A stretch of 64,000 nt of DNA from Candidatus Gastranaerophilales bacterium (GTDB taxonomy: Bacteria; Cyanobacteriota; Vampirovibrionia; Gastranaerophilales; Gastranaerophilaceae), in assembly GCA_944326605.1 (NCBI GenBank), contig CALVEM010000002.1, forward strand, positions 1 to 64,000, in the 5' to 3' direction. This document shows, in pieces, positions 3,393 through 50,598 of this stretch. The position numbers were made by a program, and so were the translations under genes. Numbering within the stretch: position 1 is the stretch's first letter; each line of letters starts with the position of its first letter. A model generated the notes under the pieces. The model was not told the DNA's origin, did no database searches, and saw only the letters and a program-made list of their open reading frames with translations.

Positions 3393-4457
3393 ATGGGTGA
3401 TTATTGTAATTTTTTAGATGAATTGACTGAGGAACTAATAGCCGCCCCCCCCCCGAGTTCACAAAACTTAACATCTCCTGATATTTCAGTTATTATTCCG
3501 GCTTATAATACTGCTGATTATATTGTTGAGTGTCTGCGTTCAGTAGTTAACCAAACATTGAAAAATATTGAAATTCTTGTTGTAGATGACGGTTCAACAG
3601 ACAAAACAAATTCTGTTGTTAAAATGTTCATGCAATACGATTGGCGCATAAAACTTATTACACAAAGAAATCAGGGACCGGGAATTGCAAAAAATAATGC
3701 CATAAAAATAGCCCGAGGTAAATGCATAGCATTTATTGATAGTGATGATATTCTTGAGTATGACGCATTAGAAAAAACATACAAAATATACGAACAAACT
3801 AAATCTGATATTGTTATATTCGGGGCCTACGGGCTATGCAAAGGCAAAAAAACTAAATGCCATTACAGCATAAAAAGAGTACCGAAAAGACTTTTAGGGA
3901 AAACGCTAACTCCATTTAGTGCAAAAGACACAATGTTTAAATTACCTGTTATTGCCATGTGCAAACTATATGACAGAAAATTTTTAATTGAAAATAATAT
4001 TCTTTTTCAAGAAGTAAAAAAAGGCGAAGATCAGTTATTTTTTGTAAAATCCATTCTGATGGCAAATAAACTTTATATTATTAATCAAAATTTATACGGC
4101 TACAGAAAAGACCGAAAAGATTCTTTGACATACTCAAAACTCAAAAAAGACAATTCCGTGATATTAAATTTTTACGCAATTGAAAAATTTTTACAAACAT
4201 ATAATATAAATTATGATATCAAACTTAAAATTTTGAATAAATATTTTAACAAATGCGTTTCATGGCTTGGCAAATGTGAAAAGAGTTACAGAAACGATTA
4301 TTTTAATGAACTGAGAAAACTTATTGTATATTTGCAGGAAAATCATCCGGAATTATCCAGCGTAAACATAAAATTATCACCGTACAGTAAATATCTTATT
4401 ATAAAATTCAAATTGTTATACTTATTATTAAGGAGAAAACTGAATGGAAACAAATAA
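3393..4457 (+). CDS. Family 2 glycosyltransferase, putatively phase-variable
   Basis: 354 residues. A GT-A domain begins at residue ~30: VIIPAYNT, nucleotide-binding DDGSTD at 65-70 and the metal-binding DSDD at 116-119. The first 28 residues precede the domain and contain three prolines (19-21) encoded by a run of ten C. One C fewer gives TAA, one C more gives TGA, within about ten codons, so tract length decides whether the enzyme is made. First of three consecutive glycosyltransferases; overlaps the next gene by 14 bases. The C-terminus (~300-354) is basic and hydrophobic, suggesting membrane attachment. Transfers a sugar to a surface glycan; donor and acceptor unknown. Confidence 0.9.
   Translation: MGDYCNFLDELTEELIAAPPPSSQNLTSPDISVIIPAYNTADYIVECLRSVVNQTLKNIEILVVDDGSTDKTNSVVKMFMQYDWRIKLITQRNQGPGIAKNNAIKIARGKCIAFIDSDDILEYDALEKTYKIYEQTKSDIVIFGAYGLCKGKKTKCHYSIKRVPKRLLGKTLTPFSAKDTMFKLPVIAMCKLYDRKFLIENNILFQEVKKGEDQLFFVKSILMANKLYIINQNLYGYRKDRKDSLTYSKLKKDNSVILNFYAIEKFLQTYNINYDIKLKILNKYFNKCVSWLGKCEKSYRNDYFNELRKLIVYLQENHPELSSVNIKLSPYSKYLIIKFKLLYLLLRRKLNGNK
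3445..3454 (+). repeat. C10 homopolymer tract in glycosyltransferase codons 18-21
   Basis: Ten consecutive C followed by GA, inside the reading frame. The frame is ON at this length; both alternative frames stop within ten codons. Same length and same following GA as the three other C10 tracts of the window. Confidence 0.9.
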
Positions 4458-26107: not shown

Positions 26108-27187
26108 TTATGTAATAGCAATCTCCATCAAAGATTTAATGGCAGGCCATTCAAGTTTCCACAAACCCGATGCGTCAAGCGCATAGTTGCCGACACAGGC
26201 CAGTTTGCAGTCTTTGCATTTATTGACAGTTTCAATAAACAGAGGATCTTTGATAACGTCTTTCAAAGGTCTGTTTCTAACGCTTATAAAAGGCTTTCTG
26301 TCATAGCAGCGAAGCATTTCACCGTTAGAATAAATTACTGTTGCAATTCTCGGCCAGTGGCATTCATAGTATGTTTTCTTATTGATAATGTAATCCATGA
26401 AATAGTATGAATTTCTAATCGGATAGCCCTGCTTTTTGAGTTCTTTAATTTTTATAAACATTTGTGATAACTGGTCGTTTTCAAGTTCGGTCTCAACAAC
26501 GTTTTCGGCTTCATCCGGTCTTGAAGCTGCTTTATTAACCGTAAAGTATAATAAAATATCAGCATCTTTACAGTATTGAGCAACTTCTTTAATTTGTTCA
26601 AAGTTAGTTTGAGTTGATACCGTACAACAAACATAAATTCTCATCTTAGGAGAATGAATTTTATGATACTCAATACCTGACATCACCTTGTCGCAAATAC
26701 CGGGAAGATGACGGATATCATCATGCGCTTTTCCGATTGCATCAAGTGATACAAACATCAAATCAGTATATTTTGCAAAATCAGGATTAGTTTCAAGATA
26801 CCAGCCGTTTGTGGCAATTTTTGTGTACAGACCTGCGTCATGGGAAGCCTTGCAAATTTCTGCAAAATCCTGTCTTAAAAGAGGCTCTCCACCCCACAGA
26901 ATACTGTCCATATACCCGATTTTTCCCGCTTCTGTCAAAAGTCTTACAATTTCGTCAGTCGGCATGTCATCTGTGCCTTTTTTAGATTTCCAGAAACAAA
27001 AATCGCAGTCGCAATTGCACATGCTTGTAACCATTAAGGAAAAACACAACGGTTTCGGCGTTTTAGAAAGACGGCTTGCTATACATTCAAGCGCCCCCCC
27101 CCCGAGGTGTCTGTAGTATTTCAAACGTTCAAACGTCATTTTGTTTCTTGATTCATGTTTAATTTCGGGCTTTTCTTTAGTAATCAT
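26108..27187 (-). CDS. Radical SAM/SPASM-like protein, putatively phase-variable
   Basis: 359 residues. The SAM cluster motif is C57-x3-C61-x2-C64 (CNCDCDFC), followed by LWGGEPLLRQDF. The C-terminal part contains extra cysteines (CYDRK, CKDCKLAC) typical of SPASM/twitch clusters. Residues 29-31 are glycines encoded by ten G; loss or gain of one G yields TAG or TGA within five codons. GAGG six bases before ATG. It directly precedes the SLBB exporter gene, so switching it might alter glycan or an exported peptide, and could affect exporter expression by polarity. Substrate unknown. Confidence 0.86.
   Translation of the reverse strand: MITKEKPEIKHESRNKMTFERLKYYRHLGGGALECIASRLSKTPKPLCFSLMVTSMCNCDCDFCFWKSKKGTDDMPTDEIVRLLTEAGKIGYMDSILWGGEPLLRQDFAEICKASHDAGLYTKIATNGWYLETNPDFAKYTDLMFVSLDAIGKAHDDIRHLPGICDKVMSGIEYHKIHSPKMRIYVCCTVSTQTNFEQIKEVAQYCKDADILLYFTVNKAASRPDEAENVVETELENDQLSQMFIKIKELKKQGYPIRNSYYFMDYIINKKTYYECHWPRIATVIYSNGEMLRCYDRKPFISVRNRPLKDVIKDPLFIETVNKCKDCKLACVGNYALDASGLWKLEWPAIKSLMEIAIT
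27094..27103 (-). repeat. G10 (plus-strand C10) tract in radical SAM codons 28-32
   Basis: Ten C on the plus strand followed by GA. The gene is in frame at this length; minus one base gives TAG, plus one gives TGA almost at once. Identical in length and flank to three other tracts in the window. Confidence 0.9.
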
Positions 27188-31862: not shown

Positions 31863-31872
31863 CCCCCCCCCC
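31863..31872 (-). repeat. G10 (plus C10) tract between a strong start codon and the broken fibre gene
   Basis: Minus strand: AAAGGAG, ATG at 31908-31906, ten codons, then ten G. At G10 the frame ends at TAG seven codons after the tract begins; at G11 or G8 the frame is open for 58 codons and joins the fibre frame at 31735. Confidence 0.88.
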
Positions 31873-48192: not shown

Positions 48193-50253
48193 CTATTTTA
48201 TTTTCGCTTCAATAGCCTTCAGGCGGGCATCTAATTTCTTATTGTCGTTCTGAACCTGTTTCAAAACAGCATTCAGCTCTTTATTGTCATCCTTAACTTG
48301 TTTCAGGAGCTCTGTCAATTGCTGGTTTTCTTTTTGCAAAGTTGTGACACGCGTATCAAGTTCCTTTATCGCATTTATCATTGCAAAGAACATATCCTCA
48401 AAACGGATTGTCAAAAAGCCGTCAACACCTTTTTTCACAGCGTCAGGAAAAACTTTTTGCAAATCCTGCGCGATTACACCAACGTGCGGTGTTTTCTTTT
48501 CGTCCTTTTTGAAAGTATAGTTAAATACTTTCAACTGACGAATTTTATCTAAACCTGCTGAACTTTCTTTGCCGACGTATTTCAGACGCCGGTCAGACAA
48601 ATACAAATGGAGCCTATTCCAAAATGTAATCCATTTATCGTCTACATTATGAGATCTGCGTATATCCTCATCGTTACGTTCTATAAGAGATAAACGATTA
48701 GATGAAAGATTATTTTGATGATCTTTTTCTCTTGTTGTTAGAAATGTATTACCTTTAACGATAAGGTTTCCGTTTATGACTACAGAAGTATCATTATCTT
48801 GAGCTAAATTACTAAGAGAATTAGAAGATAAATTATGAATTTCCAACACAGCTGTAGCATTGTTAAATTTAGATTGACCGCCTATAAATATACGTTCTTC
48901 TGCATCACTCGAGGATGCCCACGAAGAACCAGATCTCGGACCGGAATTTGCACCAATACATACTTTATTTGAACCTGCAACAGTTCGGCAAGCATTATAT
49001 CCAATCGCTACATTGTTTGAACCAAAAGCCTGCGCATAATAGCCAACAGCCGTAGAATAGGGACCAGAAGCTGCGGAACTAGCTCCTATGACAGTAGAAC
49101 CATCTCCGGAAGCTTCTGAATTCGAACCCAAGGCAGTAGAACCACCACCTGAAGCTGAGCCCGCTAAAGCGACAGACTTTAGACCGGAAGCTTCAGCATA
49201 GGCACCTAAGGCTGTGGAAAATACACCTGAAGCTGCAGAATTAGCTCCTAAGGTTACAGAATAGTTTGCTGAAGCTACAGAATTATAGCCTAAAACTATA
49301 GAATTGTATCCTGAAGCTTTTGAATTATAACCTATGGCATTAGTATAATTAGCTGTTGCTTTCGCACCTGTTCCTATTGCAGTTGAATTCTCCATTGAAG
49401 CTTCTGTATTTCCCCCAAGAGCTATGGACGAGGCGCCGGAGGCTAATGCTATATTACCGATTGCTGTCGAATTATTACCCGAGGCCTCGGCATTATTTCC
49501 AATTGCATTCGCGGATATTCCGCTTCCTATTGAACTCGGGTCAAGAACATTCGAAAAATTACCAGAAGCCTCCGCACTATTTCCTATAGCATTGGAGGAC
49601 TCTCCGCTTGCTGTTGAACTCGGTCCGATTGCGGTTGAGGCATTTCGAGTGGCACTCGAGCGTACTCCGATGGCATTGGAACTTGAACCCGAAGCGCTTG
49701 CGCCTGACCCGACTGCAGTTGCACCTGTATTTGTTGCAGAGGAACTTGTCCCGATGGCGGTTGAATTACTCCCGCCGACACTTGTATTACGTCCGACTGC
49801 TACTGAATTCGTTACCAGATCTCCGCTCGATAAACCGCCGATTAACAGGCCGCTATTCTTAAATTTAATACGACCTAAAACATTATCTCCCGTTTTAAAC
49901 AATATATGATCTTTACCGTCAGGAGCATTGATTACTAAACGAGAGGAGGTATCAGTATTGTCTGCCTCTTCCTGGCCGATCATGGCTACCTGTGCATCGC
50001 CTAAGGCATAATATGCATCTGACCCGTTGCTTGCCCACTGCCAGGGAGAAGATTGGTCAAGCTTGTTTCTTGTTGTCATGACAGGGGCCATAGCCGCCAT
50101 TACAATACTTAATATTAGCATTACCACCATCATCTCGGCTAAAGTGAAAGCACATTTCTTTAGACGATAGGACGGTAAGACGTTAGGACGATAAGTTCGT
50201 TTCTCATAATTAATGTCATCCTGAACGTCGGATTGACCTCGGCGGCTCTGCAT
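48193..50253 (-). CDS. Pilin-anchored YadA-like fibre with S74 self-cleaving chaperone (phase-variable candidate)
   Basis: 686 residues from ATG 50253. In order: basic leader (1-32), type IV prepilin block CAFTLAEMMVVML with F36 following the expected cleavage point, a hydrophobic helix to ~56, a ~50-residue region shared with the other copy, about 30 head repeats of the SxAxGxxSxAIG type (~110-450), a stalk, the S74 domain with S553-DRRL-K558 (Ser-Lys dyad for self-cleavage) and a C-terminal coiled coil made of LKQV(Q/K)(N/D)DNK(E/K)L units. Trimeric fibre assembly and release of the chaperone tail are inferred from those families. The start at 50253 has no good ribosome binding site; the better ATG at 50501 is joined to it only if the G tract at 50462-50471 is 11 or 8 long. 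Confidence 0.85.
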   Translation of the reverse strand: MQSRRGQSDVQDDINYEKRTYRPNVLPSYRLKKCAFTLAEMMVVMLILSIVMAAMAPVMTTRNKLDQSSPWQWASNGSDAYYALGDAQVAMIGQEEADNTDTSSRLVINAPDGKDHILFKTGDNVLGRIKFKNSGLLIGGLSSGDLVTNSVAVGRNTSVGGSNSTAIGTSSSATNTGATAVGSGASASGSSSNAIGVRSSATRNASTAIGPSSTASGESSNAIGNSAEASGNFSNVLDPSSIGSGISANAIGNNAEASGNNSTAIGNIALASGASSIALGGNTEASMENSTAIGTGAKATANYTNAIGYNSKASGYNSIVLGYNSVASANYSVTLGANSAASGVFSTALGAYAEASGLKSVALAGSASGGGSTALGSNSEASGDGSTVIGASSAASGPYSTAVGYYAQAFGSNNVAIGYNACRTVAGSNKVCIGANSGPRSGSSWASSSDAEERIFIGGQSKFNNATAVLEIHNLSSNSLSNLAQDNDTSVVINGNLIVKGNTFLTTREKDHQNNLSSNRLSLIERNDEDIRRSHNVDDKWITFWNRLHLYLSDRRLKYVGKESSAGLDKIRQLKVFNYTFKKDEKKTPHVGVIAQDLQKVFPDAVKKGVDGFLTIRFEDMFFAMINAIKELDTRVTTLQKENQQLTELLKQVKDDNKELNAVLKQVQNDNKKLDARLKAIEAKIK
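48244..48310 (-). repeat. Palindromic repeat units in the coiled-coil codons of the intact fibre
   Basis: GTCGTTCTGAACCTGTTTCA and GTCATCCTTAACTTGTTTCA are the intergenic repeat family read as codons; they give the (V/L)LKQV.NDNK coiled-coil units. Confidence 0.65.
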
Positions 50254-50257
50254 CTCT

Positions 50258-50287
50258 TGAGATCCCGAAACAAGTTCGGGATGACAG
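50258..50287. repeat. Palindromic repeat unit in the fibre leader
   Basis: GATCCCGAAACAAGTTCGGG with flanks, identical to 31741-31768. Encodes CHPELVSGSQ in the long frame from 50501. Confidence 0.75.
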
Positions 50288-50353
50288 ATTGCTAATTTAT
50301 TATTGATAACAGCTTCGCATCTTTGCCTCTTGACGTCTTTGCTTCCGGTTAAT

Positions 50354-50380
50354 AGATCCTGAAATAAATTCAGGATGACA
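50354..50380. repeat. Second palindromic repeat unit in the fibre leader
   Basis: GATCCTGAAATAAATTCAGG plus GATGACA. Present only before the intact copy, where it lengthens the predicted leader by 25 codons relative to the broken copy while keeping the reading frame. Confidence 0.75.
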
Positions 50381-50461
50381 TGAATGATACTTGCTTTGCA
50401 TCTATGCCTCTTAGCATCTTTGCTTCTAGCTGCGTCTTTGCCTCCGGCGGAGCCTACAAAG

Positions 50462-50471
50462 CCCCCCCCCC
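50462..50471 (-). repeat. G10 (plus C10) tract at the intact fibre gene
   Basis: Ten C on the plus strand followed by GA. OFF at this length (TAG soon after), ON at 11 or 8. Confidence 0.88.
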
Positions 50472-50598
50472 GACTTTACTTTTGTTTACATTCATTCCCA
50501 TAATTACGCCCTTTCGTTAAGTTATATTTCTTATTATAACTCATATTTTACAAATTTTGCAACTGTTATTCAAATAATATTTATAATACTATAAAATT

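Follow-up and report, generated by a model that had tools for sequence, protein, structure and literature searches.

Among the closest described systems, the homopolymer of Neisseria pilC lies in the signal peptide, and a single G-rich element upstream of the one expressed pilin gene, pilE, acts in recombination in a strand-dependent manner. In pilC and opa, a homopolymer or a repeat tract, respectively, switches a surface or pilus gene in frame, much as is proposed for the locus described here, which also shares with pilE the presence of G-rich DNA by a pilin gene and the importance of its strand. Poly-G/C tracts of at least nine bases are generally taken as a sign of phase variation; the tract given for pilC is G 9–20, and SSRs were found in only 23 of 607 silent Neisseria pilS alleles (PMC5953494). 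The phasome of Campylobacter jejuni is likewise made of poly-G/C contingency loci, strain NCTC11168 having 29 loci of at least seven repeats (PMC4965091). A 5′ poly-A tract in Listeria inlA leads to a very short truncated product, which a one-base insertion restores (PMC2831843). Finally, slippage in IS elements and dnaX offers a similar geometry for an RNA-level alternative weighed below, in that a homopolymer is closely followed by a zero-frame stop and the product is read in the shifted frame (for IS elements, PMC1088944).

The window, a stretch of 64,000 nucleotides from the genome (2,051,382 bases, or 2.05 Mb, in 26 contigs) of a member of Candidatus Gastranaerophilales, gut bacteria with a kinship to cyanobacteria, carries a fibre gene whose 5′ end on the minus strand reads, in order, AAAGGG, seven nucleotides, an ATG at 50501 that opens MGMNVNKSKV, and ten Gs running into GCT TTG TAG (Table 1). 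As assembled, the frame from this ATG encodes a 15-codon product ended by the TAG. One additional G yields a single open frame of 769 aa, in which 83 leader codons meet the 686-aa ORF precisely at its own M. A sequence-only reading had reported this start, the G10 at 50462–50471 and the TAG behind it, and rechecking the sequence confirmed that the DNA had been read correctly; the joining of an 83-codon leader to the 686-residue prepilin/YadA/S74 frame by one extra G was reproduced. Its proposals that the true start lies upstream of the annotated ORF start, that the tract gates the frame and that the assembled state is OFF are also supported.

Table 1. Features of the fibre locus and of other G10 tracts in the window
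Feature	Position	Strand	Basis
Shine-Dalgarno-like AAAGGG ahead of the upstream ATG	50509..50514	-	Sequence; SD-ATG likewise placed in other tract genes
Start and first 10 codons, MGMNVNKSKV	50472..50501	-	Sequence; near-identical in relatives, identical in paralogue L048
G10 tract, putative frame gate	50462..50471	-	Sequence
TAG stop of the assembled (length-10) frame, 2 codons 3′ of the tract	50454..50456	-	Sequence
RGCYY box (GGCTC) of the common 3′ flank, 7 nt past the tract on the G strand	50450..50454	-	Flank comparison
Remainder of the 83-codon leader, repeat-like, open in the +1 frame only	50254..50461	-	Sequence; frame analysis
Fibre frame of 686 codons with prepilin motif, YadA-head repeats and C-terminal S74 domain	48193..50253	-	ORF translation, Pfam
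Prepilin N_methyl motif (CAFTLAEMMVVM)	50089..50160	-	Pfam PF07963; motif match at 50132-50148
Peptidase_S74 (chaperone of endosialidase) domain	48433..48597	-	Pfam PF13884
Second G10 prepilin leader (L025), +1 to a 356-aa prepilin ORF	31863..31872	-	Same frame relation
G10 in conserved radical-SAM gene, in frame at ten	27094..27103	-	Comparison with relatives
G10, read as C10 at codon 17 of a + strand glycosyltransferase gene (L023), in frame at ten	3445..3454	-	Frame check

The fibre passes the cut-off for both PF07963 and TIGR02532 and contains the N-terminal methylation motif [GA]F[TS]L.E. Pfam scores for PF13884 (3e-16) and YadA_head (1.2e-38), together with the position of the S74 domain near the C-terminus, as in S74 intramolecular-chaperone fibres, suggest that the protein probably belongs to the trimeric S74 fibre class. 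The 18-nt flank type of its leader is common to 29 tracts. Like most long leaders, the stretch behind the tract is repeat-like and contains palindromes (GTCATCCTGAATTTATTTCAGGATCT), and its reading frame stays open; palindromic elements inserted in genes of Rickettsia are comparable.

Comparison with fibre orthologues showed that three of them (L079, L081 and L194) begin MGMIVNKCKK/MEKIVNKCKV, near-identical to the window start. The tract is G10 and one base short in L079, L082, L088 and the paralogue L048, G9 and two bases short in L081/L124, and in frame at G10 (ON) in L194. Three further orthologues (L080, L083 and L084) have no tract, and L083 and L084 start with an ordinary short leader. 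The window fibre and the tract-bearing orthologues have start codons, first codons and GGGG in common, and the long, repeat-like leader insert of the window copy is not found in L079. The expectation that leader codons are conserved in frame therefore holds in part: the frame relation, the start and the first codons recur, but conservation does not extend to the greater part of the 83 leader codons.

Such a tract is not peculiar to the one fibre that the sequence-only reading described: about 66 prepilins of the same genome have leader tracts of the G10 type. Exact runs of G10, G9 and G11 number 74, 10 and 2 in this genome, and of the 85 tracts of length at least nine that we examined, 66 were assigned to prepilin genes. 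Within 256 kb around these tracts, G5 runs occur 35 times on the tract strand and 27 times on the other, G6–G8 runs not at all, and G10 runs 74 and 0 times; the abundance of G10 exceeds chance. The usual layout is SD-ATG, 8–13 codons, the tract and, 7 to more than 200 codons further on, FTLAE, with gene starts assigned by an SD-ATG heuristic that required a choice between two ATGs in L018 and L060. Prepilin-motif matches number 110, compared to 1 in the control, and thus some prepilins have no tract. The approximately 110 motif genes are scattered through the genome in both directions and are mostly unclustered.

Across 33 genomes, runs of exactly 9, 10 and 11 total 148, 1621 and 150. Exact G10 was surveyed in 194 genomes of the class, which, like all the data used here, are assemblies that are apparently mostly metagenomic. 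It is plentiful in the window's genus, in genus g7 (73) and in g8 (57), reaches moderate numbers in a few others and is otherwise rare. Within the window's genus, G002, G003, G004, G022 and G024 have none or nearly none, and the ten sampled in g8 are not prepilin leaders. A relative from another genus, G096, has many exact G10 in another repeated context (G10-TAAACCGCTCATACCAAAGGTTTTGGCGAT; L225–L233), outside prepilin leaders.

For each tract we computed the bases needed to join start and prepilin frame, favouring no frame; tracts of relatives were sampled partly by length and partly by position. Among length-10 prepilins of the window's genome and of G001, G006, G013 and G015, one base is missing in 105 of 109, none in two and two in two, and the relation spans 46 leader clusters, all three start-to-tract phases, and G-coded and C-coded genes alike. 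In a second genus (G090) it applies to 13/13. When relatives' tracts were picked for other lengths, G9 needs two bases in 14 of 16 and length 11 is in frame in 13 of 16. As 9, 10 and 11 thus mostly correspond to +2, +1 and 0, the downstream frame is fixed and tract length sets the state. The own-genome tracts of length 11, 11, 12 and 16 are all in frame, and about 5 of the 66 prepilin tracts are ON. Comparison between species of length differences that toggle an intact frame revealed L060, ON at 12, versus L118, OFF at 9; at L135, two near-identical neighbours have tracts of 10 and 11. In the relative G025, sampled lengths range from 9 to 13 and frames are mixed. Tract lengths in the pilin and sugar genes of G025 (L151–L162) are greater and scattered, unlike those of its congeners, possibly through altered mismatch repair.

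The genes behind the tracts are intact. In the frame of the prepilin motif, no stop interrupts the stretch that begins at the tract in 62 of 64 own-genome cases, with a median of 85 codons, or in 59/59 cases from relatives, and open leader sequence in the window's genome totals 5,462 codons. Of 28 genes with a short leader, 26 contain no ATG, GTG or TTG in the interval from tract to motif, so their proteins must come via the tract, and re-initiation at a downstream start was ruled out as a general mechanism.

We regard as the best explanation, with about an even chance of being right, a pilin repertoire that is OFF by default and undergoes slipped-strand phase variation. A ribosome would start at the SD-ATG, read 8–13 codons, cross the ten Gs (or Cs) and stop a few codons later, such that no full prepilin would be made at length ten, and at eleven, or another length of the same frame, the leader would join the prepilin frame. 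Slipped-strand mispairing in replication would shift tract length around a modal ten, and most cells would have a given pilin or fibre OFF while a minority would have it ON, with each cell showing a different small subset. Lengths would presumably vary within the population, with ON cells making the protein and cleaving its leader. As prepilin peptidase removes the leader of ordinary prepilins, the extra glycines, prolines and repeats should spare the mature protein.

Frames, stops, lengths, strand polarity and the comparison with relatives are read directly from the sequences. Phase variation is favoured by the fixed frames with differing lengths, the orthologues in different states, the in-frame tracts of 11, 12 and 16 in the window's genome, the intact ORFs behind OFF tracts, the lack of other starts in most short-leader genes and the range of lengths in G025. 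Homopolymers of at least nine G/C are found inside the 5′ coding region of surface genes, as in SSR-mediated translational phase variation. The symmetric totals for 9 and 11 fit slippage around a set point, and the consensus assembly of a fast-switching population would display the modal length nearly everywhere. On the other side, 105/109 prepilins in the window's genome and relatives and 13/13 in the second genus would be turned ON by eleven bases but not by nine, though tracts of 9 and 11 are equally common, a choice that plain default-OFF switching would not make; this preference can be accommodated if the 11-base ON state is shorter lived than the 9-base state, which is an added assumption. 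Tract length is also far more uniform than in known systems, and phase variation needs neither the near-immediate stop nor the DNA flank described below. Slipped-strand switching, as the sequence-only reading had it, is backed by frame-fixed length differences among relatives but leaves the near-uniform ten, the uniform one-base shortfall and the replication-linked G strand unexplained. Because the exact tens, the shortfall and the strand do not follow from ordinary random switching, there is room for slippage at the RNA level.

Such programmed recoding, the main rival, which we consider somewhat unlikely, would leave the DNA stably at ten and bring some product into the prepilin frame in every cell, either through RNA polymerase adding a base on the homopolymer or through the ribosome slipping back by one on GGG GGG/CCC CCC during translation. 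Ten bases is about the length of the RNA–DNA hybrid, and slippage usually runs backward, which would produce exactly +1. The uniform ten, and the same offset of +1 across leader clusters, phases and both coding senses in two genera, are what this reading predicts, and the near absence of G6–G8 runs agrees with it. It also draws support from the closed frames: a stop falls within 3 codons past the tract in 91% of G-coded genes in the length-10 frame, compared to 6% in the other closed frame, and in G090 the length-10 frame stops 2–4 codons after the tract (median 2) and the length-9 frame after 8–25. C-coded genes show no early-stop bias, with a median of 5 codons in both closed frames. The tracts thus offer the conserved slip site, fixed frame offset and nearby zero-frame stop that programmed slippage or −1 frameshifting requires. 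However, no consistent stimulatory RNA structure was seen downstream, the mean folding z being about 0 over 60 nt against mononucleotide shuffles. A hairpin past the tract, seen in the GGCTCCGCCGGAGGC leader family, was rejected as a general feature. Tracts of 9, 11, 12 and 16 with intact genes, and orthologues in other states, are not expected if the DNA is stably ten, and neither the replication polarity nor a flank kept in DNA sense in both gene directions finds an explanation at the RNA level. Furthermore, G/C runs slip poorly. The survey of bacterial transcriptional slippage deals with A/T runs (PMC1088944).

The strand and flank data suggest a third reading, in which G10 and its flank are primarily a replication-oriented DNA signal for recombination, repair or templated writing that restores ten, and the pilin frames are secondary or reset; we judge it quite improbable. 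The G strand is uniform along each contig, with exactly two flips in the near-complete relatives G013 and G015 and in the window's genome, while prepilin tract genes run both ways (47 G-coded and 19 C-coded). By GC skew, 15 of 19 contig parts have more G on the tract strand, as leading-strand sense would give. Origin and terminus would presumably lie at the flips; dnaA, rejected as a marker of them, is not at a flip and sits within a one-strand block. On the G strand the context is almost always C-G10-C, and with near-duplicates removed, the share of prepilins with RGCYY 7–9 nt past the tract is 81% for the G type and 60% for the C type, compared to 5–9% expected. Since this flank is common in DNA sense and not in coding sense, it indicates a constraint at the DNA level. 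A strand bias with two flips per genome resembles Chi/KOPS-like elements, but these are abundant and spread independently of genes, whereas here there are about 80 copies, mostly in prepilin leaders under a strict frame relation that a DNA signal alone does not explain. RGCYY is also missing from the second genus, G090.

Outside prepilins, G10/C10 are found in genes that include those for glycosyltransferases, for a radical-SAM protein and for an AAA/FtsH-like protein, and 9 of these 11 genes are in frame at ten (Fisher p = 2.8e-10 versus prepilins). The C10 in the glycosyltransferase gene of the window is likely switchable in the opposite way, with a default ON state. At the radical-SAM site, TTA GGN GGN GGN GCN of the relatives is CTC GGG GGG GGG GCG in the window's genome and in G009; the amino acids are unchanged, and 6 of the 15 site positions are unlike those of every other relative. 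A tree built without the site does not place these two carriers as sisters (supports of 0.935 and 0.947 on the separating nodes), and such rewriting of codons in non-sister lineages argues for a DNA signal. Two gains would be the simpler reading, but the case is a single gene, and repeated losses of an ancestral tract may also account for the pattern. At 27094–27103, L264 and L266, the radical-SAM G10 has arisen by several synonymous changes. In the AAA-type gene L032, one synonymous change is enough to complete the tract, and in L039, a 270-aa gene, the tract segment differs from relatives in amino acids as well.

Phase variation, recoding and a DNA signal are not fully exclusive. In one combination, which we hold to be unlikely, dozens of loci would carry a replication-oriented G10 whose length is written, or reset, as exactly ten by templating on the exposed strand; a programmed one-base slip or dedicated tract-resetting machinery, and not random tract mutation, would then express at least 60 pilins per genome. 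That the tracts are really eleven long or the genes dead is scarcely credible and already largely refuted: MAG consensus sequences are error-prone at homopolymers and PCR slippage occurs at G8–G11 (PMC4965091), but the non-pilin genes in frame at ten rule out a systematic undercount of an 11-base tract, the same lengths recur across some 30 independently assembled genomes, and the frames behind the tracts are open.

If phase variation is correct, a single gene family would form a very large contingency system, in a gut lineage that is common but uncultured, and about 66 pilins or fibres, each a single base away from ON, would present varied subsets toward host, phage and neighbours; if recoding is, the genes would be an unusually large set of programmed frameshift genes. 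Under either reading, automatic annotation gives these proteins wrong starts or none. The exact length, the strand rule and the common flank also provide a natural case for what sets homopolymer length in bacteria. A literature search covering few subscription journals found no report of phase variation in Gastranaerophilales/Melainabacteria, and we know of no described switch of the phase-variation type with all the features of the G10 pilin system. Neisseria has few loci of variable length, whereas here about 66 prepilin genes have one length, one offset and one replication strand. The G-rich element of pilE is unlike the G10, which stands inside dozens of leaders in either gene direction. 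Listeria inlA is a single poly-A locus with no gene family and no strand rule, and the known bacterial cases of slippage or −1 frameshifting are A/T runs, unlike the G or C runs linked to the replication strand here. In Campylobacter, ON and OFF states are mixed by gene and by bird (PMC4965091); in contrast, the consensus here has almost every prepilin OFF and almost every other gene with G10 ON.
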